Below, one piece after another: positions 62 through 41,074 of a DNA stretch of 64,000 nucleotides (its first letter is position 1; every line of letters begins with the position of its first letter). The DNA comes from Bacteroidota bacterium. GTDB lineage: Bacteria > Bacteroidota > Bacteroidia > Flavobacteriales > Weeksellaceae. Location of the stretch: NCBI GenBank assembly GCA_018266955.1, contig JAFDZI010000002.1, positions 62,001-126,000 of the forward strand, in the 5' to 3' direction. Made by a program: the position numbers and the translations under genes. The notes beneath the pieces were generated by a model. That model made no database searches. It had not been told where the DNA came from and saw only the letters and a list, made by a program, of their open reading frames with translations.

Positions 62-731
62 TCTAAAACTCGTAACTCTTGTAAGTCGTTGGAAATATGA
101 TACAAATGTAATGAAAATCTGCTATATAGCACAATGTGAAGTAAATTTTGATAAAATAATTATCTATGAAATTAATTATAAAACTTCAAAAAACCATTGA
201 AGCAACTTATTTCCTTAAATGAATTTCCTTTCATTTTTCCATTGATAATGAACGCCCTCTGAATCACTTCCAACTGTGGTTTTGGTTTTTACGTTTGCAA
301 ATGTAGGACAGCATTTTTCGCACAAAAAAATCTTTTTGGGTTTCTAAAAAATTCTCTCCACTTCGCTCCAACAATTTTTCCAGACACTCCTAAACTCTTC
401 GAGCAAAAAGATTTCAAGCCCGATTCGGGATTTCTGTTTTTTCTAAACGGAACCGAACTGGGTTTTGTGTGAAAAATACTGTCCTATGGTCATCGGCAAA
501 GAAAAAGCCGGAACCTCAGTTGTACGAATCAATTCAAAATGCAGACGTTCTTTGACATCAACGAAAAAAAAATCAAAAGAAAAAACAACAAAAAATTATG
601 CTTTTACAATTTGGTAAAAGTAAAAAAAAAGCCGAGTGTCCTCGATACCAAATCAATTCACTCGCAAATTTCAATTATTAATACAATCAATCATTATTAT
701 AAAAATCATTAACAAAATAAATCAAAACATT
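62..731. other. Noncoding leader region before ssb
   Basis: No convincing gene is present. The region holds the first copy of the structured repeat (304-486), a small CGGC/GCCG hairpin at 494-510, and the sequence ACGTTCTTTGACAT at 545-558. A near match, GCGTTCATTGACAT, precedes the DUF6876 gene at 4284-4297, so it is probably a promoter or activator element. AT-rich sequence runs from there to the ssb start. Confidence 0.5.
304..486 (+). repeat. Structured noncoding repeat, copy A
   Basis: Outer arms 304-327 and 463-486 are complementary at 22 of 24 positions (one further position is a possible G-U). Inner arms 328-338 and 404-414 form a perfect 11-bp stem (AAATCTTTTTG / CAAAAAGATTT). The interval also contains TTTTTCCAGACACTCC, shared with copy B at 4065-4227. 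Copy A stands about 245 bases upstream of ssb. The inner sequences match copy B closely, while the outer stem differs in sequence but keeps pairing. It could be an RNA leader, a protein-binding DNA hairpin or a single-strand initiation site. Confidence 0.7.
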
Positions 732-1142
732 ATGAACACAATCGTAGGCAGAATTACCAAAAATGCAGAAATCAAAACATTGGCAAACAACCGACAAGTC
801 GTGAATTTTTCAGTAGCCGTGAATGATTATTACAAAAATAAACAAGGCGAAAAAATCGAACAAACCACCTATTTCAACTGTGCGTATTGGATTAGTTCCA
901 AAATAGCAGAATACCTTACCATAGGGACTTTGGTGGAATTATCGGGGAAAATTTCTTCGAGTGCGTGGATTGGAAAAGACGGAGAAATAAAATCGGGATT
1001 GAACTTAAACACTTCACGGATAAAATTTCACGGAAAGGGAAAATCCGACCAAACAACGAAAATCACAAACAATCCAACAACGGCAAAACCGCAGAAAAAT
1101 CAAGCGTTTGCGGACGATTTGGAGGATGATTTACCATTTTAA
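732..1142 (+). CDS. ssb: Single-stranded DNA-binding protein
   Basis: A 136-residue SSB. The N-terminal ~105 residues form the OB fold, opening MNTIVGRITKNAEIK and containing the usual VVNFSVAVND and YFNCAYW segments. A low-complexity linker leads to the acidic tip DDLEDDLPF that binds partner proteins in this family. SSB coats exposed single strands during replication and conjugative transfer. I chose the ATG at 732 because it matches the family N-terminus; the frame is open from 636 but that extension is not SSB-like. It heads a run of small element genes on the plus strand. Element-borne SSBs are common, and this copy probably serves the element, not the chromosome. Confidence 0.93.
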   Translation: MNTIVGRITKNAEIKTLANNRQVVNFSVAVNDYYKNKQGEKIEQTTYFNCAYWISSKIAEYLTIGTLVELSGKISSSAWIGKDGEIKSGLNLNTSRIKFHGKGKSDQTTKITNNPTTAKPQKNQAFADDLEDDLPF

Positions 1143-1153
1143 AATTCAAAATT

Positions 1154-1402
1154 ATGGAAACACAATTCAATTTTCAAATCAAAAACCGAAAAGACAAGCG
1201 AGATTGGGAACTCATCGAAGTTTCTTATCAAATCTATTGCGAAAGAAACACGGCAATCCGCTATGCAAAGCGACTTTCAAAAATTTTCCACTCGGAAATC
1301 CGAATGACACAAGGAGCAGAACCGCTGAAAACAAGCGGAACTTACATCTACGAACAAGCAGAACCTTTAAAAATCAAAAATTATGGCAAATTGGTGCAGT
1401 AA
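1154..1402 (+). CDS. Small element-type hypothetical protein
   Basis: An 82-residue polar protein starting METQFNFQIKNRKDKRDWEL, 11 bases after ssb and overlapping the next gene by 20 bases. I do not recognise a family. The start is preceded by AAAATT, as are several starts here (for example at 1383), which together with the tight spacing supports real coding in an ssb operon. No membrane segment or signal peptide is visible. Function unknown. Confidence 0.55.
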   Translation: METQFNFQIKNRKDKRDWELIEVSYQIYCERNTAIRYAKRLSKIFHSEIRMTQGAEPLKTSGTYIYEQAEPLKIKNYGKLVQ

Positions 1403-1898
1403 CACGGTCGTTTTCGGGGGAAATCCCGAAACGATTGAGCAGATAAAATGGTTGTTTCAAACAATGGCTGAAAAACAGAAAAAAGAGAGTTGCGGACAAC
1501 TTCCGGATTTTGTGAACCGAAACAACGGCGGATATTTTTTCTATATCCATTTGAATGACGAAGATACCGACACTTTCGAGTATCAAACGAAATGGTCGCC
1601 AAATATTGAAATCGTCCAAGAAATTGCGGAACACTACAAAGTAGATTTTGTGCAGGATTATGAGGAATTGGGGTGTTGCATTTTCGGCAAAGCAATCTTT
1701 GAAAACAGCGAACTGACCGACATTTATTTGGAAGATGAAGATTTTGACCAATACCAATACGATGAAGAAAAAGACCAATGGATTTTCGAGGGCAATATTT
1801 ACGGAAGTGATTACGAAATATTAGAAATTCTTTTGGAACGAAAAATCGAAAATCACTTTAACACTATTAAAAATCAACAAAATGAAATTATCAGATAA
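1383..1898 (+). CDS. DUF1281/Api92-like hypothetical protein
   Basis: A 171-residue soluble protein opening MANWCSNTVVFGG, a signature of small proteins on Bacteroidota mobile elements and phages often annotated as DUF1281 or Api92-like ferredoxin-fold proteins. The C-terminal half is very acidic (EDEDFDQYQYDEEKDQW). It overlaps the preceding gene by 20 bases and the following one by 17, so it is in the same operon. No catalytic motif is recognisable. The family assignment rests on the N-terminal motif and is moderate; the biochemical role is unknown. Confidence 0.65.
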   Translation: MANWCSNTVVFGGNPETIEQIKWLFQTMAEKQKKESCGQLPDFVNRNNGGYFFYIHLNDEDTDTFEYQTKWSPNIEIVQEIAEHYKVDFVQDYEELGCCIFGKAIFENSELTDIYLEDEDFDQYQYDEEKDQWIFEGNIYGSDYEILEILLERKIENHFNTIKNQQNEIIR

Positions 1899-2351
1899 AC
1901 CAACAGAATATTTGCTCATAAAAGCAATGAACAACAGCGATTGGGACGAATGCGATTTTGCAATCATCCACATTACAGACGAATGGAAACAAACCCAAAG
2001 AAAGCGTTTGGAAACCGCAAAAACAGTAGAAAATGACTACGATTTGAAGTGGCTGAATTATGCCGATACCAATGTAGAATTTTTCAAATTTTTGGGAGAA
2101 GATTATCCCGAAATTGAGGAATTACTTTCAGAAAAAAGCCAAATTTTCATTGAATTGGAAACAGGCGATTTAAAGAAATTGTTGCAACCCGAAAACAGTT
2201 TGAACTGCTACCAAATGCAGGTTTCAAAAACGGAAATGCCATTTACAACGCATTCGGAAAACACACAGGTGAGGAATTTTACACCGAAGAATTTTCATTA
2301 AACCAACTTGTAAAATATTCAGAACCAACAACTTTAAACCTTGAACTTTAA
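1882..2351 (+). pseudogene. Frameshifted element hypothetical protein
   Basis: The frame starting MKLSDKPTEYLLIKAMNN runs well to about residue 93, then degrades into atypical sequence ending at 2301. From about 2166 another frame reads as normal protein (LLPNAGFKNGNAIYNAFG, then KHTGEEFYTEEFS) to a stop at 2349-2351. Joining the two needs a one-base deletion (or two-base insertion) between about 2155 and 2195, giving a ~156-residue product. It overlaps the upstream gene by 17 bases. Function unknown. The break may be a real mutation or a sequencing error. Confidence 0.65.
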
Positions 2352-2370
2352 ATCTTAAACCCAAAAAATT

Positions 2371-3003
2371 ATGCAAACCAATTTTTTCAGACAAATCGCA
2401 AAAATGAACCTTTCGGGTGATTTGCAAATTACGTTAAGACCGTCATCAGAAAACGGTTTTGTCCTTTCCGTATTGCTCAAAAACGAGCAATGCGGTGATG
2501 ATGCCAAAAAACTTATTCCGCCTTTAAATCTTCGTGGAACAGCCGAAGAATTGGACAACGGATTTTTTGAAAACATTTCCACACCGCTACAAACCACTTC
2601 GGGATTGATGGTGGATATGGAAAATTTTATGAAACAACTTGAAGAAGTCAAAAAGAAATCGGCAATGGAAAAAGAGAAATCCGAGAGAGAAAAAAAGGAA
2701 AAAGAAACCAAAGCGAAAAAGTACAAAGACGCTTTTGAAAAAGCCGAAACGCTCGAAAAAGAGGGCAAATACAAAGAGGCGTGGTCGGCACTTCCGAAAG
2801 TTTCCGAATATCCCGATGTTACCGAAGAAATCCGTAAAAAACAGGACATGACCGTTCGAGATATTGGCTGGATTTCGGGAACAACCAGTTTACAGGGCAG
2901 GTTTTACTTTCCACAATCGGAACCGTTCAGCAACCCGATTCTGAAAAATACGAAACGATGGAAAACCTACCATTTGTTACCATGGAATTTGGCGAACTTT
3001 TAA
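2371..3003 (+). CDS. PRTRC system protein E, 3'-truncated by a deletion
   Basis: Residues 1 to about 157 look like PRTRC protein E: QIAKMNLSGDLQITLRPS, then KNEQCGDDAKKLIPPLNLRG, then a Lys/Glu coiled coil (about 90-130) and EGKYKEAWSALPKVSEYP. After EEIRKKQ the frame runs for ~53 residues into DNA that, read in another frame, encodes the end of the PRTRC ThiF protein, so the C-terminal quarter here is out-of-frame junk. PRTRC (ParB-related, ThiF-related cassette) genes travel on plasmids and integrative elements; their biochemical job is not settled. The truncated protein may still be made, but its partners are gone. Confidence 0.8.
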   Translation: MQTNFFRQIAKMNLSGDLQITLRPSSENGFVLSVLLKNEQCGDDAKKLIPPLNLRGTAEELDNGFFENISTPLQTTSGLMVDMENFMKQLEEVKKKSAMEKEKSEREKKEKETKAKKYKDAFEKAETLEKEGKYKEAWSALPKVSEYPDVTEEIRKKQDMTVRDIGWISGTTSLQGRFYFPQSEPFSNPILKNTKRWKTYHLLPWNLANF

Positions 3004-3201
3004 AACAATCTGAAACGGAAGACGAAACACCGAGTTGCAGTTTGGCGGAAGCATTGGAAAAGCAGGATTTGTATATCAATTCGGTTTTGGCACAAATAGG
3101 GAGTTCGCTTTTATGGAATCTATTCCGCAACGGACTAACTGAAAACAGAATTTTTTTTTCTCAATCTGAAAAATTTCAGAACTCAACCCATAACACTATA
3201 A
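2844..3201 (+). pseudogene. PRTRC ThiF-family protein, C-terminal remnant
   Basis: In the frame after the end of protein E the DNA reads RYWLDFGNN..TGQV, ENLPFVTMEFGELL, TPSCSLAEALEKQDLYINS and SLLWNLFRNGLTEN, which I recognise as the conserved C-terminal part of the PRTRC ThiF-family (E1-like) protein. There is no start, and the N-terminal nucleotide-binding half is missing. A second lesion lies in a run of nine T at 3151-3159; with eight T the frame would continue FFLNLKNFRTQPITL to the stop at 3199-3201. The remnant follows directly on truncated protein E, so one deletion fused the two. Confidence 0.78.
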
Positions 3202-3376
3202 AAAAGCCGTCCGAAGAAAATTCGGGAGGCAAAAATGCAATTCCTCCCTGTGGTCGGAATCGCATTTTTGCGGAAAGTGGATGCAATCCCATTTCTATAA
3301 CATTTTTGGTATTTTAAATGTTTACTAAAAGAGGTTACGGACTATTTTTTTGAACTTTAAATCAGAATTGTAGAAC

Positions 3377-3916
3377 TTAATTCCAAGAAACTTTCAAATC
3401 CTTAAATTCTAAATTCGACCGCTTTATTTCAAATGAATTTTTTCCGGATTGTGCGGTCGCTTTGAACCTGAATAGTTTGATAAATAAGGGTTCGCCTTGT
3501 ATATCTTTAAATGAAAAATTGAGTTTCATCGGAACTCCCATTGCCAGCTCCGGATATGGTCGGCTGGATTTATATAAATCAATTTTATATTCGTTTCCTT
3601 CAATATCCACGATAAAAATATCTTCAATCGTCATTTTTTTGTTCTCATCTTTTGTTTCAATGAGAAAACTAATGGTAATATTTTTTTCAGCTTTATTTCC
3701 TTCGACTTTTGTGATTTTAAAAGAAGAATTTTCTTGCTCTGTGTCAATTATTGGTTTGTTGATTTCAAGCCCTTTTTTCAGATATTCATTTTCCGAAGTC
3801 AAAGTTTTATTCGCTGATTGCAGAACCTCATTTTCTTTTTTGAGAGCATCGCAGTTGGTTTGACCATATATTGATGAAACCATTGATATTGCAGATAAAA
3901 GTAAGATTTTTCTCAT
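3377..3916 (-). CDS. Secreted hypothetical protein with N-terminal coiled coil
   Basis: A 179-residue protein with a signal peptide (MRKILLLSAISMVSSIYGQ), then a short heptad-like segment (KKENEVLQSANKTLTSENEYL, approximate residues 25-45) and a beta-rich C-terminal domain. No family is recognised. A periplasmic or outer-membrane location is likely; there is no lipobox at the cleavage site. It is alone on the minus strand between element genes on the plus strand, with its own -7 box at 3943-3950. It could be element cargo or a stranded chromosomal gene. Confidence 0.7.
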   Translation of the reverse strand: MRKILLLSAISMVSSIYGQTNCDALKKENEVLQSANKTLTSENEYLKKGLEINKPIIDTEQENSSFKITKVEGNKAEKNITISFLIETKDENKKMTIEDIFIVDIEGNEYKIDLYKSSRPYPELAMGVPMKLNFSFKDIQGEPLFIKLFRFKATAQSGKNSFEIKRSNLEFKDLKVSWN

Positions 3917-3942
3917 TTTGTTTTTTGTATTGATTCAATGTT

Positions 3943-3950
3943 CAAATATA
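3943..3950 (-). promoter_or_regulatory. Bacteroidota -7 box for the secreted hypothetical gene
   Basis: Read on the minus strand this is TATATTTG, an exact match to TAnnTTTG, 26 bases before the start codon at 3916. No clear -33 TTG lies at the expected spacing, so the assignment is moderate. Confidence 0.45.
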
Positions 3951-4064
3951 CAATAAAACGGTGCTTTTGTTCTATATTTTTTTCGGTTTTTCTCGTGAAA
4001 TAACCCACTGTTTCTGTCCTTTTTATTGTCTGACCAGCAAGTCGTTTTCAGTTTGCAAAAGTAT

Positions 4065-4227
4065 AAATCCCGTTTCTGCACAAAAAAAATCTTTTTGGGT
4101 TTCTAAAAAAAAATCCTTCCGCAAGCTCCAATAATTTTTCCAGACACTCCTGAACTCTTTGAGCAAAAAGATTTCAGAGCCTTTATTTCATTTTACTCCA
4201 TTCCAATTTTGTGCGAAATCGGGATTT
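4065..4227 (+). repeat. Structured noncoding repeat, copy B
   Basis: Outer arms 4065-4085 and 4207-4227 pair at 18 of 21 positions (AAATCCCG and GCACAAAA blocks match perfectly). The inner 11-bp stem 4087-4097 / 4164-4174 is identical to copy A. The outer-stem distal sequence (AAATCCCG) differs from copy A (TAGGACAG) but complementarity is retained on both arms. It ends about 118 bases before the DUF6876 gene, in the same orientation and with the same downstream GTTC-TTGACAT motif as copy A before ssb. Confidence 0.7.
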
Positions 4228-4344
4228 CTATCGTCAAAAAGCAATGAAAAACGACAGGCGTGGTCAGAAATTCATAAAGAAGAGCGTTCATTGACATTTT
4301 CGGAAAAAATAAAATAAAAAATTAACAATTAAACAATTTCAATT

Positions 4345-4677
4345 ATGAAAAATCCAAACATTTCAGCCAACGAATTTTACAACGAGTTTATGGGAACAGA
4401 ATGCTACTATTCCTATATGTTCGGAATTTTGCTGACAGATGGTGTGAATACCATTGCAGAGAAAGAAGAATGCTATTGGTTTATTGACTGCATCGCTTCT
4501 TATCAATTTGAGGGAAAATTCCGTAAAGAAGAATTTCAGGTATGGAAACTTGAAAGGGTAAATGATGCCCGATTCAAACTTTCTGCGACCAACGGAAATA
4601 ACAAAGTCCTGGCTACCCAAGACATCGAATTTTCCAATTTTTTCTTTAATGAATTGACCATTTCGCTGTCTTTCTAG
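4345..4677 (+). CDS. DUF6876 family protein
   Basis: A 110-residue soluble protein containing YSYMFGILLTDGVNTIAEK, CYWFIDCIASYQ and FQVWKL, the pattern I associate with DUF6876, a small family on Bacteroidota and other mobile elements. Its function is unknown. It stands alone, preceded by copy B of the structured repeat and the motif GCGTTCATTGACAT (4284-4297), the same arrangement as upstream of ssb, so the two genes are likely under common control. The stop at 4675-4677 is followed by noncoding DNA. Confidence 0.75.
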   Translation: MKNPNISANEFYNEFMGTECYYSYMFGILLTDGVNTIAEKEECYWFIDCIASYQFEGKFRKEEFQVWKLERVNDARFKLSATNGNNKVLATQDIEFSNFFFNELTISLSF

Positions 4678-9569: not shown

Positions 9570-9836
9570 ATGAAAAAGAAAAAAATTTTAAAGTTTTCAA
9601 AAGAAACAGTAACAAAATTAGACAAAAATTCTAAAAAGCTTATTAACGGTGGAGCCGCTGGTATGGAACTAGCAATAGATGCAGGTTTTTCAGCTGGTTG
9701 TACTGATGGATGTGGTATAACAAAAACTCATTGGAATTGCACAGAAGCTACGTGTACTGCTGATTGTGGTTCTGCTATTAATTGCGCTCCAACATCGAAG
9801 TCTTTAGACGGTCTTACTTGTACTTTTGTTGGGTAA
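9570..9836 (+). CDS. Class I lanthipeptide precursor peptide (LanA)
   Basis: An 88-residue peptide. Residues 1-28 form a Lys-rich leader ending LINGG, the GG-type site expected to be cut by the C39 exporter downstream. The 60-residue core (29-88) holds seven Cys (44, 48, 57, 62, 66, 72, 84) and thirteen Ser/Thr, enough for several (methyl)lanthionine rings. The first part AAGMELAIDAGFSAG lacks Cys and may be linear. It lies directly upstream of LanC and the split LanB, with its own promoter and followed by a hairpin terminator. Resembles GG-leader natural product precursors of Bacteroidota. The ring pattern cannot be predicted from sequence. Confidence 0.9.
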   Translation: MKKKKILKFSKETVTKLDKNSKKLINGGAAGMELAIDAGFSAGCTDGCGITKTHWNCTEATCTADCGSAINCAPTSKSLDGLTCTFVG

Positions 9837-9862
9837 TTAAAGTACTTTTACATTAAGAATAG

Positions 9863-9886
9863 GAGGCTGTTTTTCAGCCTCTTTTT
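9863..9886 (+). terminator. Terminator/attenuator between precursor and LanC genes
   Basis: GAGGCTG (9863-9869), a five-T loop and CAGCCTC (9875-9881) form a perfect 7-bp stem followed by five T. It lies 26 bases after the precursor stop and 20 before LanC. A leaky terminator here would give far more precursor than enzyme transcript, the usual ratio in lanthipeptide operons. Confidence 0.8.
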
Positions 9887-9905
9887 AATTGGATATTTCT
9901 TGACT

Positions 9906-11099
9906 ATGAGCTTAATCATTACAAAAGAGAAACAAAAAGAATTAGAATATTTATTATACTTCATAGCTGAAGGAATTATAAATAAAAAAGATAACCCAAA
10001 TATAGGTTTACTATCTGGTGCAATGGGAGAGACCCTATTTTTATATGAATATTCTCAAATAAATAAGAATTATGAAAAATATGTCACTAAAAAAATAGAT
10101 TATATATTTGAGTCTATAGAAAACGGAAATGTCTTTCATACGTATTGTAATGGATTACCTGGAATTTGTTTGGCTATTGATTATATTCAGTCTAAAAGCC
10201 ATTTTGATTACAAGCGTTTTGATTTTGTAGATAATCAAATTGATGAATGGCTTATTGAACAATTTAATATTTGTATTAATGAAGGAAATTATGATTTCTT
10301 ACATGGAGCAATTGGAATAGGATATTATTTTTTGGAGAAATTCAAAAGTGGTCATCTCGAATCAAAAAAAACCTTAAATGTTTTATTAAAATTCATTAAT
10401 AATTCTGCAATTAATGAAAATGATTTTGTAAAGTGGAAAACTCATAATAAGGTTGTGAACATTTCTTTATCTCATGGTATGACAAGCATTGTGCTCTTTT
10501 TATTAGATCTATACAAATTAGATGTGAAATTTGATTATAATATTGAACAAATTATCAAAGGAGCAATAAATTTTATTTTAGCACAGGAAATTGATTGGAA
10601 GATGTATGGATCTTACTATCCTTTTACGTCTATCGAACAGCAAAAAGATAAAATTCATGGAAGTAGGCTATCTTGGTGCTATGGAGATCTTGGCATTGCA
10701 ATAATGCTAAGTAAGGCTTCTAAAATTTTTAATAAAACTATATGGGAAGAGAAATCTAAAGAAATATTTGAATATTCTACTACAAGAAAAAGCATTAGTG
10801 AGACTACAATAGTAGATGCAGGAATATGCCATGGAAGTTCTGGTGTTGCATTAATCTTTTATAATGAGTTTTTAAAAACAAATAATGCACATTATGCAGT
10901 AGCTGCTCAATTTTGGCTTAATAAAACACTAACCTTTTATAAAGAAGATTCAGAAAATTTTTCAAAAGTTTGTTACAACACTATTACAGGAAATTATGAA
11001 CCCAACCCTAGTATTCTCGATGGTACTTCTGGAGTAGGATTAGCCTTAATATCATTTATTAATAATAAACTTGATTGGTCAAAATTTTTAACAATATGA
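9906..11099 (+). CDS. Lanthionine synthetase C family protein (LanC cyclase)
   Basis: A 397-residue LanC-like cyclase. The zinc ligands are visible: Cys258 in SWCYGDLG and Cys308-His309 in ICHGSSG. GG-type helical repeats of the alpha/alpha barrel recur (FLHGAIGIG, SHGMTS, LDGTSGVGLAL). The enzyme catalyses Michael addition of Cys thiols to dehydroalanine/dehydrobutyrine in the precursor core. The ATG at 9906 is preferred over a TTG at 9900. Its stop overlaps the start of LanB (ATGA), so the two are translationally coupled. Length is close to the family's ~400 residues. All metal-binding residues are present, so it is probably active. Confidence 0.93.
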   Translation: MSLIITKEKQKELEYLLYFIAEGIINKKDNPNIGLLSGAMGETLFLYEYSQINKNYEKYVTKKIDYIFESIENGNVFHTYCNGLPGICLAIDYIQSKSHFDYKRFDFVDNQIDEWLIEQFNICINEGNYDFLHGAIGIGYYFLEKFKSGHLESKKTLNVLLKFINNSAINENDFVKWKTHNKVVNISLSHGMTSIVLFLLDLYKLDVKFDYNIEQIIKGAINFILAQEIDWKMYGSYYPFTSIEQQKDKIHGSRLSWCYGDLGIAIMLSKASKIFNKTIWEEKSKEIFEYSTTRKSISETTIVDAGICHGSSGVALIFYNEFLKTNNAHYAVAAQFWLNKTLTFYKEDSENFSKVCYNTITGNYEPNPSILDGTSGVGLALISFINNKLDWSKFLTI

Positions 11100-13306
11100 A
11101 AAATATGAAAAAAAAATATTCAGTATCTGATAATTTTATAATAAGATACCCTTTTTTTTCTTTTAAATACAACGATGGATGGGATATTAATGACATACAC
11201 GAGTGTGACAAGTTTCATTCCCCCTTATTTATAGCTTCCCCTACACTTTTAGATGAGTTTAAAAAGCTTAAAGAAGGAAAAATAAAAGATGTAAAATCAA
11301 TTGATAAAATTAATATTTCTTTATATAAATACTGGAGTAGAATAAAATCTAGACCTACTCCTTTTGGCTTATTTTCAGGTGTTTCTTTAGGAAAAATCCA
11401 TAATCATACTGATTTAGTTTTTAGTGAAAAATCCATAGCTAAAATTAGAATGGATATGAAATATCTATTTGATATTTTTACTTATCTTAAAGATATTCCT
11501 GAAATAAAAAATCAAGTAATTTTCTATCCCAATGACAGTATTTACTCTTTTAACAGTAAATATCGCTTTATAGAGAAAAAATATTCTAATGATTCTATTA
11601 AGTACGAAATTTCTGCTACTGACAAAAGCTCTTCTTTAAAAAAACTTTTATTATTGGCAAAAACAGGAATTAATTATAAAGGAATTGTGGATTTTCTTGT
11701 TTCAGAGGGATATAATGAAGATGAAAATTTGCATGAATATATTAATAATATCATTGATTCTCAAATTTTAATAAGTGAACTTGAACCAACATTAATAGGT
11801 GATGATTATTTGGAAAGAATTTTAAAAATTATAGAAGAGAGAAATATAAGTCACGATATTTTCAATAAACTTAAAGATTTAAAATTTGAATTAAAAATAC
11901 TGAATGAAAAAAATACTGTTATAGAGATTAGCGACATATTAAGAATAGAAAAAATTGTTAAAAACATCAAAATTCCTTTTGACAATAAATATCTTATACA
12001 GATTGATTCTACAAAGCAATTTCAATCTTCATATCTCAATAAAGATTATACTAATGAATTATTAGATGCTATTACTTTTTTATCAAAAATAGGGTCAATA
12101 AAAAATGAAAATCAGGACTTAGAAGATTTCAAATCCATTTACCAAGAAAAATATGAAAGTGAAGAAATTTCTTTACTACAAGCACTAGATCCTGAAATTG
12201 GAATAGGATATCCTGTTAGCAAAAATGTAGGAAAAGAATATAGTAATTCATTAATCAAAAATTTTCTTCTTGTAAATAATAGTGTGAAAAAAGGACAAAA
12301 AAGATGGGATCTAATACAGGATATTTTAATAGAAAAGATAATTACGGCTAAAGAAAACAAAGATAATGAAATTGTAATTTCAAAAGAGGACTTTCCTTTC
12401 TTTGACATGGTTAGATCTGATATGTCTCCTGTAATTTACTCAATTTTTGAAGCAATAAATGATACTCAAAATAACGCATTAATTTATTTAAAATTTGTAG
12501 GTAATGGTTCTGGTGCTAAATTAATGAGCAGATTTTCACGTCTTGACAAGGGGATTGAAGAGTATGTAAAAAAGTTAATGAAAATAGAGCAGGAGAAAAG
12601 TAATATTGAATTTGTAGAATTGTCCCATTTATCTGAATCTCCAAGAGTCGGAAATATTTCTATAAGACCAAGGCTTACTAATTACGAAATAACTTGTTTG
12701 TCAAATTCAAATTTAGATCAAAAATTTATTATTCCTATATCTGATATTCTTTTATCAATAAAAAGAAATAAAATTATTCTAAGATCGAAAAAACTAAAAA
12801 AAGAAATTTTCCCTACTCTTACAACTGCACATAACTTTAGAGATTCTTCTTTTCCAGTATATAGATTTTTATGTGATTTACAATATCAAAACCTTCAATC
12901 AAATGGATTAATGCTAAATATTAACCTCAATCTTAATTATATTCCTAGAATAAGATATAAAAACACAATTTTACGATTAGCAAGTTGGGAAGTAACAAAA
13001 AGCGAGCTTACAGATATTTTTGAAAAAAAACTATATGATGCTTCAAAAATGGAAAACATCAGAAAATGGATTGAAAAAAGAAATATTCCGCAATATATTT
13101 TGGTTTCAGAAGATGATAATGAAATGTTCATTGATTTCTACAATATAAATAGTATCAATGTATTTTTGTCACTACTAAAGAAAAAAAATAAACTTAAAAT
13201 AGTTGAATTTTTATATAATGATAAAACTGCTATTTTAAGAGATAGTTTTGGAAATCCTTATAGAAATCAAATAATTATACCTCTATTTAGAAATGATGAA
13301 GAATAG
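11096..13306 (+). CDS. Lantibiotic dehydratase, glutamylation domain (LanB N-terminal part)
   Basis: About 736 residues. The diagnostic RPTPFGLFSGVSLG stands near residue 90, and the later SPRVGNISIRPRLTNYEI and FRDSSFPVYRFLCDLQ match the Lant_dehydr_N region. This part uses glutamyl-tRNA to glutamylate Ser/Thr of the precursor. It lacks the C-terminal elimination domain, which is supplied by the next gene, so the LanB is split as in thiopeptide-type and some Bacteroidota systems. The start is the ATG at 11096, overlapping the LanC stop, or a second ATG at 11105. The gene is extremely AT-rich. It overlaps the following gene by 14 bases. Confidence 0.92.
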   Translation: MKNMKKKYSVSDNFIIRYPFFSFKYNDGWDINDIHECDKFHSPLFIASPTLLDEFKKLKEGKIKDVKSIDKINISLYKYWSRIKSRPTPFGLFSGVSLGKIHNHTDLVFSEKSIAKIRMDMKYLFDIFTYLKDIPEIKNQVIFYPNDSIYSFNSKYRFIEKKYSNDSIKYEISATDKSSSLKKLLLLAKTGINYKGIVDFLVSEGYNEDENLHEYINNIIDSQILISELEPTLIGDDYLERILKIIEERNISHDIFNKLKDLKFELKILNEKNTVIEISDILRIEKIVKNIKIPFDNKYLIQIDSTKQFQSSYLNKDYTNELLDAITFLSKIGSIKNENQDLEDFKSIYQEKYESEEISLLQALDPEIGIGYPVSKNVGKEYSNSLIKNFLLVNNSVKKGQKRWDLIQDILIEKIITAKENKDNEIVISKEDFPFFDMVRSDMSPVIYSIFEAINDTQNNALIYLKFVGNGSGAKLMSRFSRLDKGIEEYVKKLMKIEQEKSNIEFVELSHLSESPRVGNISIRPRLTNYEITCLSNSNLDQKFIIPISDILLSIKRNKIILRSKKLKKEIFPTLTTAHNFRDSSFPVYRFLCDLQYQNLQSNGLMLNINLNLNYIPRIRYKNTILRLASWEVTKSELTDIFEKKLYDASKMENIRKWIEKRNIPQYILVSEDDNEMFIDFYNINSINVFLSLLKKKNKLKIVEFLYNDKTAILRDSFGNPYRNQIIIPLFRNDEE

Positions 13307-14186
13307 AAAATATGCACCAGGATCAGAATGGCTTTATTTTAAAATTTACACAGGCTATAAAACAGCAGATAAGCTTTTGTTGAATAAAATTTATCCTTTA
13401 ATTATTGATTTAAAGAGGAAAAAATATATTGATCAATTCTTTTTTATAAGATATTCAGATCCTCATTATCATTTAAGAGTTAGATTGCATATCTCAGAGC
13501 ACAAAAATTTAGGTGAGGTCATTGTTTTATTTAATAAAAATTTATATAAATTATTGAATAATAATACTATATGGAAAATTCAAATTGACACATATAATCA
13601 AGAGATTGAGAGGTACAATGTTCACTTAATCGAACATATAGAAAATTTTTTTCATATTGATAGTGATTACATTATTAAAATTTTGAAAGCAATAAATATT
13701 AAATTTAATAATGATGAAGATGTAAAATGGATTATTGGTTTAAAACTTATAGATAGTTCACTTTCTTTATTTTATTCAGGGGATGAGGACAAAATGAATG
13801 TTATAAGTGCAATGAGTGAATCCTTTAAAAATGAGTTTGGGTTTAATATGTATAATTCTAAACAATTTAATAGTAAATATCGAGAGAATAAGCATACAAT
13901 AGAAGCTGTAATGTCTGGTGTAAATATAATTGATGATTATAATTATACAAATTTATACAATCTTTGTAAAAAAAGGCATAAAGACTTAATAGCATCTACA
14001 TCATTAATTAAACAGACACAATTAAAAAAACAACTATCACAGGATATAATAATTGATCTTATACATATGACAATTAATAGATTAATTCCTGCTGAAAATA
14101 GATTACACGAATTAATATTATATGACTTTGTAAAAAGATATTATTTAAGTGTAATAGCAAAGAAAAGAAACAAAAAATATAAATAA
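13293..14186 (+). CDS. Lantibiotic dehydratase, elimination domain (SpaB C-terminal-like)
   Basis: A 297-residue protein beginning MMKNRKYAPGSEWLYFKIY and continuing FFIRYSDPHYHLRVRLHI, the hallmark of the SpaB_C / thiopeptide-type bacteriocin biosynthesis domain. It eliminates glutamate from the glutamylated Ser/Thr to give dehydroamino acids. In nisin-type LanB it is fused to the glutamylation domain; here the two overlap by 14 bases and presumably form a complex. Together they total about 1,030 residues, the usual LanB length. The stop is followed by 189 bases before the exporter gene. Confidence 0.9.
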   Translation: MMKNRKYAPGSEWLYFKIYTGYKTADKLLLNKIYPLIIDLKRKKYIDQFFFIRYSDPHYHLRVRLHISEHKNLGEVIVLFNKNLYKLLNNNTIWKIQIDTYNQEIERYNVHLIEHIENFFHIDSDYIIKILKAINIKFNNDEDVKWIIGLKLIDSSLSLFYSGDEDKMNVISAMSESFKNEFGFNMYNSKQFNSKYRENKHTIEAVMSGVNIIDDYNYTNLYNLCKKRHKDLIASTSLIKQTQLKKQLSQDIIIDLIHMTINRLIPAENRLHELILYDFVKRYYLSVIAKKRNKKYK

Positions 14187-14284
14187 CATATATTTAAAAT
14201 TATTTTATTTTTAGATTTTTAACAGGTCTCATTTTTATTAGTTATAGAAAAAATTGTTAGTTAAAAATAACAAGTACAAGAGAA

Positions 14285-14338
14285 ATGTTAAAACCCATTA
14301 AAGTCAGAAGCCCTTTAGACGGTCTTGGTATATTATAA
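14285..14338 (+). CDS. Candidate 17-residue peptide, possible precursor fragment
   Basis: A short frame encodes MLKPIKVRSPLDGLGIL between the elimination-domain gene and the exporter gene. It shares 14 consecutive bases (CTTTAGACGGTCTT, 14313-14326) with the 3' end of the precursor gene (9802-9815), in the same reading frame, giving LDGL in both. It lacks Cys, so it is not itself a lanthipeptide core. It may be a remnant of a duplicated precursor, a signalling peptide or chance. Confidence 0.25.
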   Translation: MLKPIKVRSPLDGLGIL

Positions 14339-14375
14339 TAAATGAATTAATAAAGAATATATTTTAATTTTTAAA

Positions 14376-16580
14376 ATGAATTTAAGACATTTTCCCTTTT
14401 ATAAACAACCCGATGCTAAGGATTGTGGTCCAACTTGTTTGAGAATCATAAGCAAATACTATGGGAAAAATATATCTTTACAACAAATTCGTAGTCTTTC
14501 TGAAACTACTAGAGAAGGTAGCTCATTACTTGGTCTAAGTAATGCAGCAGAAAATTTAGGCTTTTCGACGTTAGGTGTTAAATTAGACTTTAATACTCTA
14601 AAAGAAGTCCCTTTTCCATGTGTTGTACATTGGAATAAACAACATTTTGTAGTTGTTTATGATATAATAGAAAAAAAAACTGATTGCAAAATAAAAATAA
14701 GTGATCCAAGTTATGGACTCATCACGTATGATGACGAAGAATTTATTAAACAATGGATAGGTAATAATGCCGATGAAAATACAGAAGAAGGAATAGCATT
14801 AATTTTAGAAACTACACCAGCTTTTTATCAAAAGGAATATGATGATGAAGAAAGTAAAGCGAGTCTCAAATTTCTTTCTAAATATTTATTCAAATACAAA
14901 TCACTAATCCTTCAGTTAGCTGTTGGTTTATTGGCGGGAAGTTTATTATCTCTTATTCTTCCATTTCTTACTCAAAGCATTGTAGATGTTGGCATACAAA
15001 ATCAAGATTTAAACTTTATTTATTTGGTATTAATTGCACAAATAATGCTTTTTTTGGGAAGAATGGGAATAGAAATTATTCGAAGTTGGATTTTGCTTCA
15101 CCTTTCTTCTAGAATTAATATTTCTATTATTTCTGATTTCTTTATTAAATTAATGAAACTTCCAATCAGTTTCTTTGATACCAGAATGACGGGTGATATT
15201 ATGCAGAGAATTAATGATCATCATAGAATTGAACAGCTTCTTACTAATTCTTCGCTAAATACTTTATTTTCTTTGGTGAATTTTATTATTTTCAGCATTG
15301 TTTTGTTGTTTTATGATTATAGGTTATTTATAGTTTATTTGGTTGGAGCAATTCTATATATAACATGGATTACATTTTTTCTTAATAAAAGAAAAGAATT
15401 AGACTATAAAAGATTTTCTCAAGTTTCCCAAGAACAAAGCAAAGTAATTGAGCTTATTAACGGAATGCAGGAAATTAAAATGCATAATGCCGAAAAACAA
15501 AAACGTTGGGGTTGGGAATTTCTGCAAGTAAAACTATTTAAATTAAGAATAAAATCACTTTCATTAGAACAATGGCAATCGGTTGGGGGAAACTTCATTA
15601 ACCAAATTAAGGATATTTTTATGAGTTTTCTTTCTGCAAAATTGGTATTAGATGGGAATCTGACTTTAGGGATGATGCTTTCAGTCCAATATATCATTGG
15701 ACAATTAAATAGTCCTTTAATGCAGTTAATTGATTTTATAAAGCAATACCAAGATGCATCTATCTCTTTGGAAAGACTTGCAGAAATACACGATAAAGAA
15801 AATGAAGAAAATCATGAAGAACAATATATTAATGATATTCCTCAAAAAGATATAGAGATAAAGAATGTTTCTTTTAGATATATCGGTACTGAACAATTTG
15901 TTTTTGAAGATTTAAATCTTATGATTCCTAATCAGAAAACTACAGCAATTGTAGGAGCCAGTGGAAGTGGCAAAACTACCCTACTAAAATTACTAATGAA
16001 ATTCTACGAACCTAATACTGGAGAAATAAAAATAGGAAGCACCAATCTTAAAAATATTTCTCCAAGATTCTGGAGAGAGCATTGTGGTGTTGTTATGCAA
16101 GATGGCTATATTTTTAATGATACCATTGCAGAGAATATTGCAGTTGGAGAAGATTATATTGACAAAAACAAATTAAGAAAATCAGTAGAAATTGCCAACA
16201 TAAAAGATTTTATTGAAGAATTACCTTTAAGTTATAACACTAAAATAGGTAATGAAGGAGTCGGAATAAGTGGTGGACAAAAACAAAGACTTTTCATTGC
16301 TCGAGCAGTATACAAATCTCCAGAATATATCTTTTTTGACGAAGCAACATCTGCTTTAGATGCCAATAATGAAAGAATCATTATGGAAAATTTAGAGCAA
16401 TTCTTTAAAGGGAAAACAGCTATAGTGATTGCTCACAGACTATCAACGGTAAAACACGCAGATAAAATTATTGTATTGGATAAAGGAAAAGTAGTAGAAG
16501 AAGGAACACATAAAGAGTTGGTAACATTAAAAGGAGAATATTATAGACTTGTTAAAAATCAATTGGAACTTGGAAACTAA
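14376..16580 (+). CDS. Peptidase-containing ABC exporter (C39, LanT-type)
   Basis: 734 residues in three parts. The N-terminal C39 peptidase carries Cys17 in KDCGPTC, His90 in KQHFVVV and Asp110 in ISDPSYG. A six-TM ABC export domain follows (about 160-440). The nucleotide-binding domain has Walker A GASGSGKTTL, signature ISGGQKQRL and Walker B IFFDEATSALD. The enzyme cleaves GG leaders and exports the modified core from the cytosol. It is the likely processing and export unit for the precursor at 9570-9836. The adaptor gene follows with an overlapping start, and the channel gene completes a type I-like route across both membranes. Confidence 0.95.
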   Translation: MNLRHFPFYKQPDAKDCGPTCLRIISKYYGKNISLQQIRSLSETTREGSSLLGLSNAAENLGFSTLGVKLDFNTLKEVPFPCVVHWNKQHFVVVYDIIEKKTDCKIKISDPSYGLITYDDEEFIKQWIGNNADENTEEGIALILETTPAFYQKEYDDEESKASLKFLSKYLFKYKSLILQLAVGLLAGSLLSLILPFLTQSIVDVGIQNQDLNFIYLVLIAQIMLFLGRMGIEIIRSWILLHLSSRINISIISDFFIKLMKLPISFFDTRMTGDIMQRINDHHRIEQLLTNSSLNTLFSLVNFIIFSIVLLFYDYRLFIVYLVGAILYITWITFFLNKRKELDYKRFSQVSQEQSKVIELINGMQEIKMHNAEKQKRWGWEFLQVKLFKLRIKSLSLEQWQSVGGNFINQIKDIFMSFLSAKLVLDGNLTLGMMLSVQYIIGQLNSPLMQLIDFIKQYQDASISLERLAEIHDKENEENHEEQYINDIPQKDIEIKNVSFRYIGTEQFVFEDLNLMIPNQKTTAIVGASGSGKTTLLKLLMKFYEPNTGEIKIGSTNLKNISPRFWREHCGVVMQDGYIFNDTIAENIAVGEDYIDKNKLRKSVEIANIKDFIEELPLSYNTKIGNEGVGISGGQKQRLFIARAVYKSPEYIFFDEATSALDANNERIIMENLEQFFKGKTAIVIAHRLSTVKHADKIIVLDKGKVVEEGTHKELVTLKGEYYRLVKNQLELGN

Positions 16581-17874
16581 AAAAGACATATTAGATAATA
16601 TAGAACTTCGTTCAGAGAGTGTTCAGGATATACTTACACAACCGCCACATTGGATGATTCGGTGGGGAAATACCGTCATTTTTATTATTTTACTAATGAT
16701 ATTGCTAATGAGCTATATCATCAAATATCCGGAATTTGTTCCAGCAAGTGTGATCATCACTTCCCAAAATCCACCCGAAAAATTAGAAGCCAGAATCAAT
16801 TCCAAAATTGAGAAAATTTTTATCAAAGACCATCAGATAGTAAACAAAGGGCAAGTAATGATGGTACTGCAATCCACAGGAGATTATCGTAGTATTTTGG
16901 AATTAAAGAATATAATGGATTCCCTTTCACCTAATCACTTACAATCTTTTCCTATTCATAAAACATCGGCTTTTAAGCTTGGAGAGATACAAGGAGAGTA
17001 TAATAATTTTGCTAAAGCTCTTCAGGATGAAAGATTATTTACAAGATTACAGCCTTACGCTCCGGAAAACCTTGCTGCAGACCAGAGCCTTTCGGAATAT
17101 AAAGGAAGAGTTGCCAATCTTCAACAGCAGAAAAATCTGGAAATTGCGAAATACGAATTAACCAAAAAGAATTTTCAGCGTTCGCAGGATTTGTTTAATC
17201 AAGGTGTAATAGCAGCAATGGAATTGGAAAATGAAAAGATAAAATTCCTTCAGGCAGAACAAAGTCTTAAAAACATCAATATTTCTCTTTCACAAATGCA
17301 GGAAGCCATTTCCGGTCTGCATAAAACAAAAAGAGGAGCTACTATCAATACTGAAAAAGACAAGATTAATTATTCATCCCAAACACTTCAACTCTACGAA
17401 CAATTAAGGAAATCTTTACGACAATGGGAACAGAGTTACCTCATTATTTCATCAACAAACGGAATCGTGAGCTTCCAACAATTCTGGGGAGAAAATCAGT
17501 TTGTAAAATCCGGCGATATGGTAATGTCAGTTTTGCCCGAAGATAAAGAATTTTTAGTTGGAAGAATGCAGATTCCATCAGCCAATTCGGGGAAAGTACA
17601 AACCGGGCAAAAAGTTTTGATAAAATTAGATAATTATCGCTTTCAGGAATACGGAATTATTGAGGGAAAAGTTCAGAATATTTCACTTACACCTGATGAA
17701 AATGGAAATTATTACGTTGATGTAATTCTTCCAAAAGGATTGAAAACATCTTATAATAAAACACTTCTGTTTGATAAGGAACTAAAAGGTAATGGCGAAA
17801 TTGTAACGGAGGATTTGCGACTTATTGAGAGAATCTTTTTTCAGATTAGGAAATTATTGGGGTATCAATCTTAA
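16570..17874 (+). CDS. HlyD family secretion adaptor
   Basis: About 434 residues. One N-terminal membrane segment (WGNTVIFIILLMILLMSYII) is followed by a lipoyl/barrel-sandwich half (SKIEKIFIKDHQIVNKGQ), a long coiled-coil hairpin (about 150-270) and a C-terminal beta domain. It links the inner-membrane exporter with the TolC-type channel. No ATG exists near the start; the TTG at 16570, overlapping the exporter stop, gives an N-terminus (LETKKDILDNIELRSESVQD) expected for this group, and a TTG at 16549 is the alternative. Confidence 0.9.
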   Translation: METKKDILDNIELRSESVQDILTQPPHWMIRWGNTVIFIILLMILLMSYIIKYPEFVPASVIITSQNPPEKLEARINSKIEKIFIKDHQIVNKGQVMMVLQSTGDYRSILELKNIMDSLSPNHLQSFPIHKTSAFKLGEIQGEYNNFAKALQDERLFTRLQPYAPENLAADQSLSEYKGRVANLQQQKNLEIAKYELTKKNFQRSQDLFNQGVIAAMELENEKIKFLQAEQSLKNINISLSQMQEAISGLHKTKRGATINTEKDKINYSSQTLQLYEQLRKSLRQWEQSYLIISSTNGIVSFQQFWGENQFVKSGDMVMSVLPEDKEFLVGRMQIPSANSGKVQTGQKVLIKLDNYRFQEYGIIEGKVQNISLTPDENGNYYVDVILPKGLKTSYNKTLLFDKELKGNGEIVTEDLRLIERIFFQIRKLLGYQS

Positions 17875-17902
17875 AATATCCGAGTACGATTGTTTTAGAG
17901 AT

Positions 17903-19225
17903 ATGAAAAAATATTTACCGTGCATAATGCTTCTTATTCCGATATTATCGTTTTCACAGGAAAAATGGTCATTACAGCATTGTGTCGATTATGCGGTGGA
18001 ACACAATCTTCAAATTTCGGCGGAAAAAATTAATCTCGAAAGCCAAAGAAATAATGTCCTTATTGCTAAAAAAGACAAACTTCCTAATATTTCCGGCTCC
18101 ATCAATAATAGTGTGAATTTTGGACAAAATGTAATTTTGGGAACGTTACAGAGAAATGATAATCTTTCAAACAATACCAACCTTTCCGCAAGTATCCAAC
18201 TTTATGGAAACGGAAAGCTGAAAAAATCCATTGAAAAAGCACAGTATGATGTGGCAACCGCAGACTTCAACAGGCAAAACATTGAGAATAATATTAGTCT
18301 TCAAATTATTCAAGGTTATCTTCAAGTGTTATTAAACAAAGAAGTTTATAAAATAGACCTTAGCAGTTATGAAAATGCGGTTAAATTATACCAAAAATCC
18401 AAATTGACAACCAAAGCAGGATTAACCCCATTTTCAGTTGAAAGTGAGGCGTTGGCAGAAGTTTCCCGGAAGAAACAGGCAATGCTGAATGCTGAAAATG
18501 AAGTGAAAAGAGCATTGTTTGATTTATCGGTTTTGTTACAGTTGGAAGATGAAGAAAATTTTGATATTGAAGACGTTGCCGTTTCAGAGGTACAACCTCA
18601 AATCCCGGAATCAACAGCGTTTTACATAGAGGCAGCATTTGAAAATCAACCGATTATAAAATCCGCCGAAACCCAGATAAAATCTGCGAAAATGCAGACA
18701 GAAGTGATAAAATCGAATCTGTATCCTACTTTATCCTGCAACGTTGGTTTGGGAACTTATTACTTCAATTATTTTAATGATACTTATACCAAGAGTTCTT
18801 CATTTCTCAAGCAATATTATGAGAATTTTGGTCAGCAAATCAGCGTGAGTGCTATTATTCCGATTTTCAATAAAGGGATTACCCGTTTGCAAATAGAGCA
18901 ATCCAAAATACAGGAAACTCTTGCGGAGAATAATTTATCCCGGCAAAAATTAGCATTGAAGCAAAGCGTCAAAAAAGCCGTTTTCGATTCCAATGCCAAT
19001 TATCAAAACTATGTAGCAGCATTGGAAGTGGATAAAAATTCAAAACTTTCATTAAATCTTGCAGAAAAAAGTTATATGGCAGGAAAGATTTCGATCTACG
19101 ATTTGAATAATGCGAGAAACAACGCAATAACGGCAGAAAGCCAGCTTCAACAAGCTAAATACAATTACATCTTTAGTGTAAAATTGCTGGATTTCTATAC
19201 AGGTAAGTCTTTTAAAGGTAACTAA
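17903..19225 (+). CDS. TolC family outer membrane channel
   Basis: About 440 residues with a signal peptide (MKKYLPCIMLLIPILSFSQ) followed by two outer-membrane efflux protein repeats rich in Gln/Asn coiled coil, for example AQYDVATADFNRQNIENNIS and a second repeat ending YSVKLLDFYTG-like (IFSVKLLDFYTG). It provides the outer-membrane duct for the C39 exporter and HlyD adaptor. The ATG at 17903 is chosen because it begins the signal peptide; upstream codons are out of character. It ends only 9 bases from the stop of the convergent replication gene at 19,235. Confidence 0.92.
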   Translation: MKKYLPCIMLLIPILSFSQEKWSLQHCVDYAVEHNLQISAEKINLESQRNNVLIAKKDKLPNISGSINNSVNFGQNVILGTLQRNDNLSNNTNLSASIQLYGNGKLKKSIEKAQYDVATADFNRQNIENNISLQIIQGYLQVLLNKEVYKIDLSSYENAVKLYQKSKLTTKAGLTPFSVESEALAEVSRKKQAMLNAENEVKRALFDLSVLLQLEDEENFDIEDVAVSEVQPQIPESTAFYIEAAFENQPIIKSAETQIKSAKMQTEVIKSNLYPTLSCNVGLGTYYFNYFNDTYTKSSSFLKQYYENFGQQISVSAIIPIFNKGITRLQIEQSKIQETLAENNLSRQKLALKQSVKKAVFDSNANYQNYVAALEVDKNSKLSLNLAEKSYMAGKISIYDLNNARNNAITAESQLQQAKYNYIFSVKLLDFYTGKSFKGN

Positions 19226-40786: not shown

Positions 40787-41074
40787 GCAAATAATGTTCA
40801 TCTAGTTGAATTTTTTTGTACAATAGTAAATGTATCCTTGTTGGATGAAAATTATATGATAGGCTTTATATACTTTATTCTTAATCGATAAACTGGTGAG
40901 AAAAGAACTAAGATTTCTAAACTAGTGTTGCAATTGCGTGAAGGATTGCAATGGAAATCCTTTTTGTGAGGTACGAACAAAAAGATTGTAATGGAAAGCC
41001 TGACCCTAGCGGATGGAAAAGCATAGGCGAGGGGCACGCCAAAATAAATCTCGAATACTTTTAACGGAAAATTG
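40787..41074. other. Noncoding region before the riboswitch
   Basis: No supported gene. The GC content is uneven, rising around 40,925-41,040; an 85-codon minus-strand frame there has no coding character. It may hold the remains of a lost gene. Confidence 0.4.

Follow-up and report, generated by a model that had tools for sequence, protein, structure and literature searches.

A covarying hairpin before ssb and other mobile-element genes of Weeksellaceae as a probable single-stranded-DNA promoter

We analysed a 64,000-nt stretch of a Bacteroidota genome (assembly GCA_018266955.1, contig JAFDZI010000002.1, positions 62,001 to 126,000 of the forward strand), hereafter the window, in which two copies of a noncoding hairpin precede the genes of a mobile element. 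The first copy lies before an operon headed by ssb, which encodes a single-stranded-DNA-binding protein, and the second before a gene for a DUF6876 protein. A first-pass annotation had described both hairpins and proposed that selection acts on their structure. Direct reading of the sequence agreed with their places and pairing, including the 22 of 24 and 18 of 21 Watson-Crick pairs of the outer arms and the identical 11-bp inner stem (328-338/404-414 and 4087-4097/4164-4174). The features, in window coordinates, are as follows.

271-298 (+): copy 1, upstream arm of stem 1, with the -7-like box TACGTTTG (290-297); pairs with 496-522; stem 1 covaries
299-303 (+): copy 1, internal loop AAATG opposite 487-495, located by alignments, at the transcription start predicted from the -7 box
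304-486 (+): copy 1, core hairpin, by direct reading and covariation
304-327/463-486 (+): copy 1, stem 2 (the outer arms, 22 of 24 pairs), within the core hairpin
about 347-353/373-379 (+): copy 1, helix AAAAATT/AATTTTT, within the core hairpin
395-403: copy 1, C(GNA)G mini-hairpin on the antisense strand, within the core hairpin
419-428/453-462 (+): copy 1, stem B, within the core hairpin
496-522 (+): copy 1, downstream arm of stem 1, pairing with the upstream arm
547-558 (+): copy 1, boxA-like motif GTTCTTTGACAT, by sequence comparison
631-650 (+): leader segment GCCGAGTGTCCTCGATACC between boxA and ssb, conserved in most ssb-type copies; could form a small hairpin
732-1142 (+): ssb, first gene after copy 1 (PF00436, E 3e-18; TIGR00621)
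1154-3003 (+): rest of the ssb operon (a small protein, a DUF1281_C protein, another protein and PRTRC system protein E)
4030-4056 (+): copy 2, upstream arm of stem 1 with TTTTCAGTTTGC, pairing with 4241-4267
4063-4229 (+): copy 2, core hairpin (type B), with stem 2 (outer arms 4065-4085/4207-4227, 18 of 21 pairs) and the inner stem
4155-4163: copy 2, mini-hairpin with antisense loop AAA, within the core hairpin
4241-4267 (+): copy 2, downstream arm of stem 1, pairing with 4030-4056
4286-4297 (+): copy 2, boxA-like motif GTTCATTGACAT, by sequence comparison
4345-4677 (+): DUF6876 protein, first gene after copy 2 (PF21781, E 8e-30)

The extent of 304-486 given earlier for copy 1 holds for the core hairpin, but the element is larger. 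A further stem, stem 1, reaches about 30 to 60 nt further out on each side, so that copy 1 spans about 271 to about 522 and copy 2 about 4030 to about 4267. Because pairing continues beyond 304 and 486, stem 1 encloses a -7 promoter box resembling that of rRNA operons. A small internal loop adjoining TTTGCAAATG separates stem 1 from stem 2, and stem 2 contains three more helices besides the invariant inner stem, among them the mini-hairpin of 3 bp. Two types of stem 1 were distinguished: in type A, which precedes ssb, upstream AACTGnGGTTnGGCTTTT pairs with downstream AAAAGCCGGAACCTCAGTT, and in type B, which precedes DUF6876 and other genes, CTGACC..CGTTTTCAGTTTGC pairs with GCAATGAAAAACG..GGTCAG. 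Stem B varies freely in sequence (CCCGATTCG/CGAATCGGG, CCACAATCCTCC/GGAGGATTGTGG and others). Folded with DNA parameters, the antisense strand of the region of about 280 nt reached -44.5 kcal/mol, against -23.6 for shuffled sequences (standard deviation 3.7).

Selection on structure was supported by covariation. Among 41 diverse copies of the core, 82% of cells were paired and 23 of the 38 pairs had changed on both sides; the covariation score was 0.163, compared with 0.063 in shuffles (none of 500 reached the observed value) and 0.03-0.07 in slid controls. For stem 1 of type B (18 of 21 pairs), the score was 0.279 against 0.188 in shuffles and 0.05-0.12 in slid controls, while type A gave a weaker signal, yet with 34 double-changed cells against 14. 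The outer arms thus covary and do not change independently of each other.

The hairpin is not confined to the window. A third copy was found on another contig of the source genome (2.45 Mb), and blastn with copy 1 as query matched 72 of 296 genomes sampled from its bacterial family, so that homologues do exist beyond the two copies. A profile run over the fetched loci counted at least 78 distinct copies. In the matched genomes, pairs of copies in the same orientation, 3-10 kb apart, were common within an element; elements often had two to four copies, all oriented alike, and four was the maximum. The exact two-arm pattern occurred in 50 stretches of the GTDB species collection. All named hosts are Weeksellaceae (Chryseobacterium, Elizabethkingia, Empedobacter, Kaistella, Epilithonimonas and Cloacibacterium), besides a few metagenome-assembled genomes. 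A covariance model search within this family recovered a divergent third type, type C, and the same model found no members outside it in samples of the order and of the phylum (about 395 genomes each). Phage sequences gave no match to the hairpin, and neither window copy matched any Rfam family at gathering score.

The type C copies (L192-L200, in genomes G008, G153, G094, G020, G132 and G176) retain the same inner stem, and several carry a boxA-like GTTCATTGAAAT. A RadC/JAB gene lies downstream of the type C copy in L193, L195 and L199. One type C copy, in a different kind of integrative and conjugative element (ICE), has an integrase gene nearby and a RadC/JAB gene downstream; in L195, an integrase gene and a topoisomerase-like gene are nearby.

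The -7-like box within stem 1 (TAcgTTTGC/TACTATTGC) resembles the rRNA operon promoter TTTTACTTTTGCA of the same family. The near-identical motif noticed in the first-pass annotation after both hairpins is indeed present, and it recurs across the family: a sequence with at most two mismatches from GTTCTTTGACAT was found in 59 of 77 copies, compared with 2 of 1540 shuffles. Its variants GCTCTTTAACAT/GCTCTTTTACAT match the E. coli boxA consensus. In three Weeksellaceae genomes, boxA occurs as GATCATTGACAT/GTTCATTGACAA both in the leaders of the rRNA operons and in the spacers between 16S and 23S. By sequence, the motif would therefore be a boxA antitermination signal, and it stands at a fixed place in the predicted transcript, as in a boxA antitermination leader. 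The transcript probably uses rRNA-type antitermination, which would suit its long untranslated leader. TTTGACAT was considered as a -33 box and rejected, since the variants GCTCTTTAACAT/TTTTACAT drop TTTG yet retain boxA.

These features would also fit a structured RNA leader, in which transcription starts at an ordinary duplex promoter upstream and the 5' end of the RNA folds, forming together with boxA an antitermination or regulatory leader similar to those of nut sites and rrn operons. The frequency of boxA, the likeness of the -7 box to the rRNA promoter and the long, conserved untranslated leader all speak for this explanation. Stem 1, however, covaries although part of it precedes the likely transcription start, so that the stem would not be contained in the RNA unless transcription begins further upstream.

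The RNA leader predicts folding of the sense strand, and we compared the two strands by the changes that their stems tolerate. Folding of the sense strand tolerates G.T intermediates, whereas folding of the antisense strand tolerates intermediates read as A.C on the sense strand. When changes from Watson-Crick pairs were counted on trees in type-specific alignments, a test that is sensitive to alignment error, A.C (G.T on the antisense strand) exceeded G.T by 78 to 42 (binomial p 0.0013), while the matching substitutions in unpaired columns numbered 291 and 390 (Fisher p 7e-6). The three internal helices gave 14 to 1, again with the antisense-compatible changes in excess, and an earlier count on one pooled alignment gave 107 to 61 (p 4e-4).

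The mini-hairpin carries a second strand signature. It reads TCC(TNC)GGA on the sense strand and TCC(GNA)GGA on the antisense strand, and its stem covaries (TCC/GGA, TTC/GAA, CTC/GAG, CCC/GGG). We know of no stability rule that favours UNC loops in RNA. On the antisense strand, a GNA triloop (GAA, GCA, GTA or GGA) closed by C-G was found in 71 of 78 copies, a count that takes in 12 of the 13 copies that the search expression had missed. GNA loops form extraordinarily stable DNA mini-hairpins (PMC4686876). The wobble excess and the GNA loops point to folding of the antisense strand. They place a conserved hairpin on the template strand, as in promoters of the Frpo type, a correspondence uncalibrated on Frpo itself.

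The excess of antisense-compatible changes and a conserved DNA-type loop on the antisense strand only are not accounted for by an RNA leader, which we consider rather unlikely. The same data bear on a double-stranded protein-binding site or cruciform, acting as an operator for partition, replication or repression. Regulators can bind long imperfect palindromes, and several copies per element would agree with such a site. A strand asymmetry of changes is unexpected for a site read as duplex, however, and so are stems of wholly different sequence such as the variants of stem B; this explanation seems most improbable.

When only genes of 90 aa or more were counted, ssb came first after a copy in 46 cases, DUF6876 in 13, ArdC in 2 and DUF7222 in 2, which bears out the expectation that the hairpin recurs before ssb and other element genes. 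In L094, a DUF932 gene is second after the hairpin. Start codons of ssb, DUF6876 and ArdC repeatedly lie 200-300 nt after the hairpin. Of the two hairpins on NZ_CP034172 (MOBB), a Chryseobacterium plasmid of 30 kb, the first precedes an antirestriction gene with an ArdC domain and the second lies upstream of ssb; both point toward the mobilization genes. In L081, L084, L086 and L097, no ssb accompanies the hairpin, which lies about 0.9-3 kb ahead of a MobC-like gene.

Of 50 contigs or plasmids, 47 had the relaxase and the hairpin on the same strand, a count that takes in near-identical elements and some hairpin-relaxase pairs 64-111 kb apart; the relaxase was usually 4-55 kb downstream of the hairpin or reached through the circle. 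Relaxase genes normally enter the recipient last (PMC11541004). With the shared strand, this suggests that the hairpin operons are leading-region genes and that the transferred strand (T-strand) is their template; our identification of the T-strand depends on that relaxase-last rule. An RNA leader leaves the polarity with the relaxase unexplained.

Taken together, the structure of the hairpin, the signs of antisense folding, the genes that follow and their polarity fit a single-stranded-DNA (ssDNA) promoter similar to Frpo (PMC9849209, PMC11541004). Frpo/ssi promoters of F, ColIb-P9 and their relatives in Enterobacteria are ssDNA promoters located before ssb and other leading genes (PMC9849209). 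We propose that the hairpin is probably an ssDNA promoter for the leading region, Frpo-like in its working, without detectable sequence similarity and with rRNA-type antitermination added. Among the options left open in the first-pass annotation (a regulatory RNA leader, an ssDNA hairpin origin or a protein-binding site), the ssDNA hairpin is thus favoured, although a promoter of the Frpo kind fits better than an origin alone.

During conjugation, the T-strand, antisense of ssb and DUF6876, would enter the recipient single-stranded and fold. Its two distant arms would pair and rebuild a double-stranded promoter, namely stem 1 with its -7 box. The internal loop would lie where transcription presumably starts, and the C(GNA)G mini-hairpin would cap a rigid head formed by a three-way junction. 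Host RNA polymerase would start at the rebuilt promoter and copy the T-strand into mRNA with boxA, and boxA may recruit NusB/S10-type antitermination, by which the polymerase would survive the long untranslated leader. In this way ssb, ArdC, DUF6876, DUF932 and other genes that serve establishment would be expressed early, while the second strand is still missing.

Several results weigh against this proposal, besides the make-up of the 47:3 count. No good candidate for a -33 box was found at normal spacing, and neither oriT (the origin of transfer) nor its nic site was identified from sequence. The wobble test on homologues of F Frpo (stretches L261, L266 and L268 excluded) gave 6 to 10, with a control of 17 to 34, too few events to calibrate it. 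The antisense strand was the more stable in 67 of 78 copies, but shuffled sequences had the same bias and this energy difference was discarded as evidence. In G054, G245 and G114 (L088/L136, L082/L138 and L094/L140), the hairpins are on the strand opposite a divergent relaxase, which would not fit an ssDNA promoter unless oriT is displaced or inverted. Finally, in L081 and L084 no gene separates the hairpin from mobC, which follows after about 1 kb, and priming fits there as well as expression; such loci are perhaps small mobilizable elements in which the hairpin primes second-strand synthesis.

The last case raises the explanation that the hairpin is generally a single-strand initiation site (ssi/sso), which primes complementary-strand synthesis only and drives no gene. 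The evidence for T-strand folding applies to it equally, and Frpo itself is said, in the title of a 1997 paper by Masai and Arai (cited in PMC11541004), to produce primer RNA. Pure priming, however, needs neither placement 200-300 nt before the starts of ssb, DUF6876 and ArdC, nor multiple copies per element, nor boxA, and we regard it as quite improbable. Neither the RNA leader nor the pure priming site explains all of the evidence.

The proposed ssDNA promoter has its closest parallel in the F plasmid. There, an imperfect hairpin of about 300 nt directly precedes ssb and other leading genes, and these genes all point toward oriT/tra (PMC9849209). A second same-orientation copy (87% in our own comparison) follows 5.4 kb on, before a DUF932 gene, and antirestriction and DUF932 genes are among the neighbours of Frpo. 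The two elements differ in that the Weeksellaceae hairpin has a Bacteroidota -7 box in place of -10/-35 boxes, a boxA and a three-way junction with a C(GNA)G cap, and was found in Weeksellaceae only. A blastn search with the hairpin as query of a plasmid collection that includes at least 5000 Frpo-bearing records returned only NZ_CP034172. The leaders of rRNA operons and lambda nut sites likewise carry boxA in an untranslated leader, with a matching boxA in rRNA leaders of the same family, but here the structure precedes boxA, encloses the promoter and appears to be folded as antisense DNA. Promoters of the phage N4 virion RNA polymerase are also ssDNA hairpins with a purine triloop; the present element is far larger, belongs to conjugative elements and presumably uses the host polymerase.

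Promoters active on ssDNA account for the production of anti-restriction and ssDNA-protecting proteins by conjugative elements that are not yet double-stranded. Such promoters are not known to have been demonstrated by experiment outside plasmids of gut bacteria such as E. coli. The literature that we found on Frpo concerns mainly enterobacterial plasmids and contained no link to Bacteroidota. We hold it to be an evenly balanced matter whether Bacteroidota have ssDNA promoters that share no sequence ancestry with Frpo and couple transcription of the incoming strand to boxA antitermination. Early gene expression from transferred DNA would then have evolved convergently in another phylum, with a device for processivity in addition. 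If the proposal is true, the hairpin marks leading regions, predicts the polarity of transfer and points to candidate anti-defence genes (DUF6876, DUF1281-like and DUF7222) in ICEs of Chryseobacterium and Elizabethkingia.

Some further features were noted. One plasmid (L043:20560-21444, minus strand) encodes a protein with an RNA polymerase alpha C-terminal domain and sigma-70 region 4, which could aid the polymerase at these promoters. A 987-aa protein encoded downstream of a hairpin (L083:4492-7455, plus strand) matches the PADLOC primase-polymerase and type IV restriction models. In the window, the region adjoining the element (9570-19225) looks like a lanthipeptide-type cluster, judged by eye from the sequences of its open reading frames, with a precursor peptide and LanC-like, LanB-like, peptidase-ABC transporter, HlyD and TolC-like proteins. 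A Flavo-1 RNA (RF01705, 57.5 bits) lies at 40931-41009 on the plus strand.

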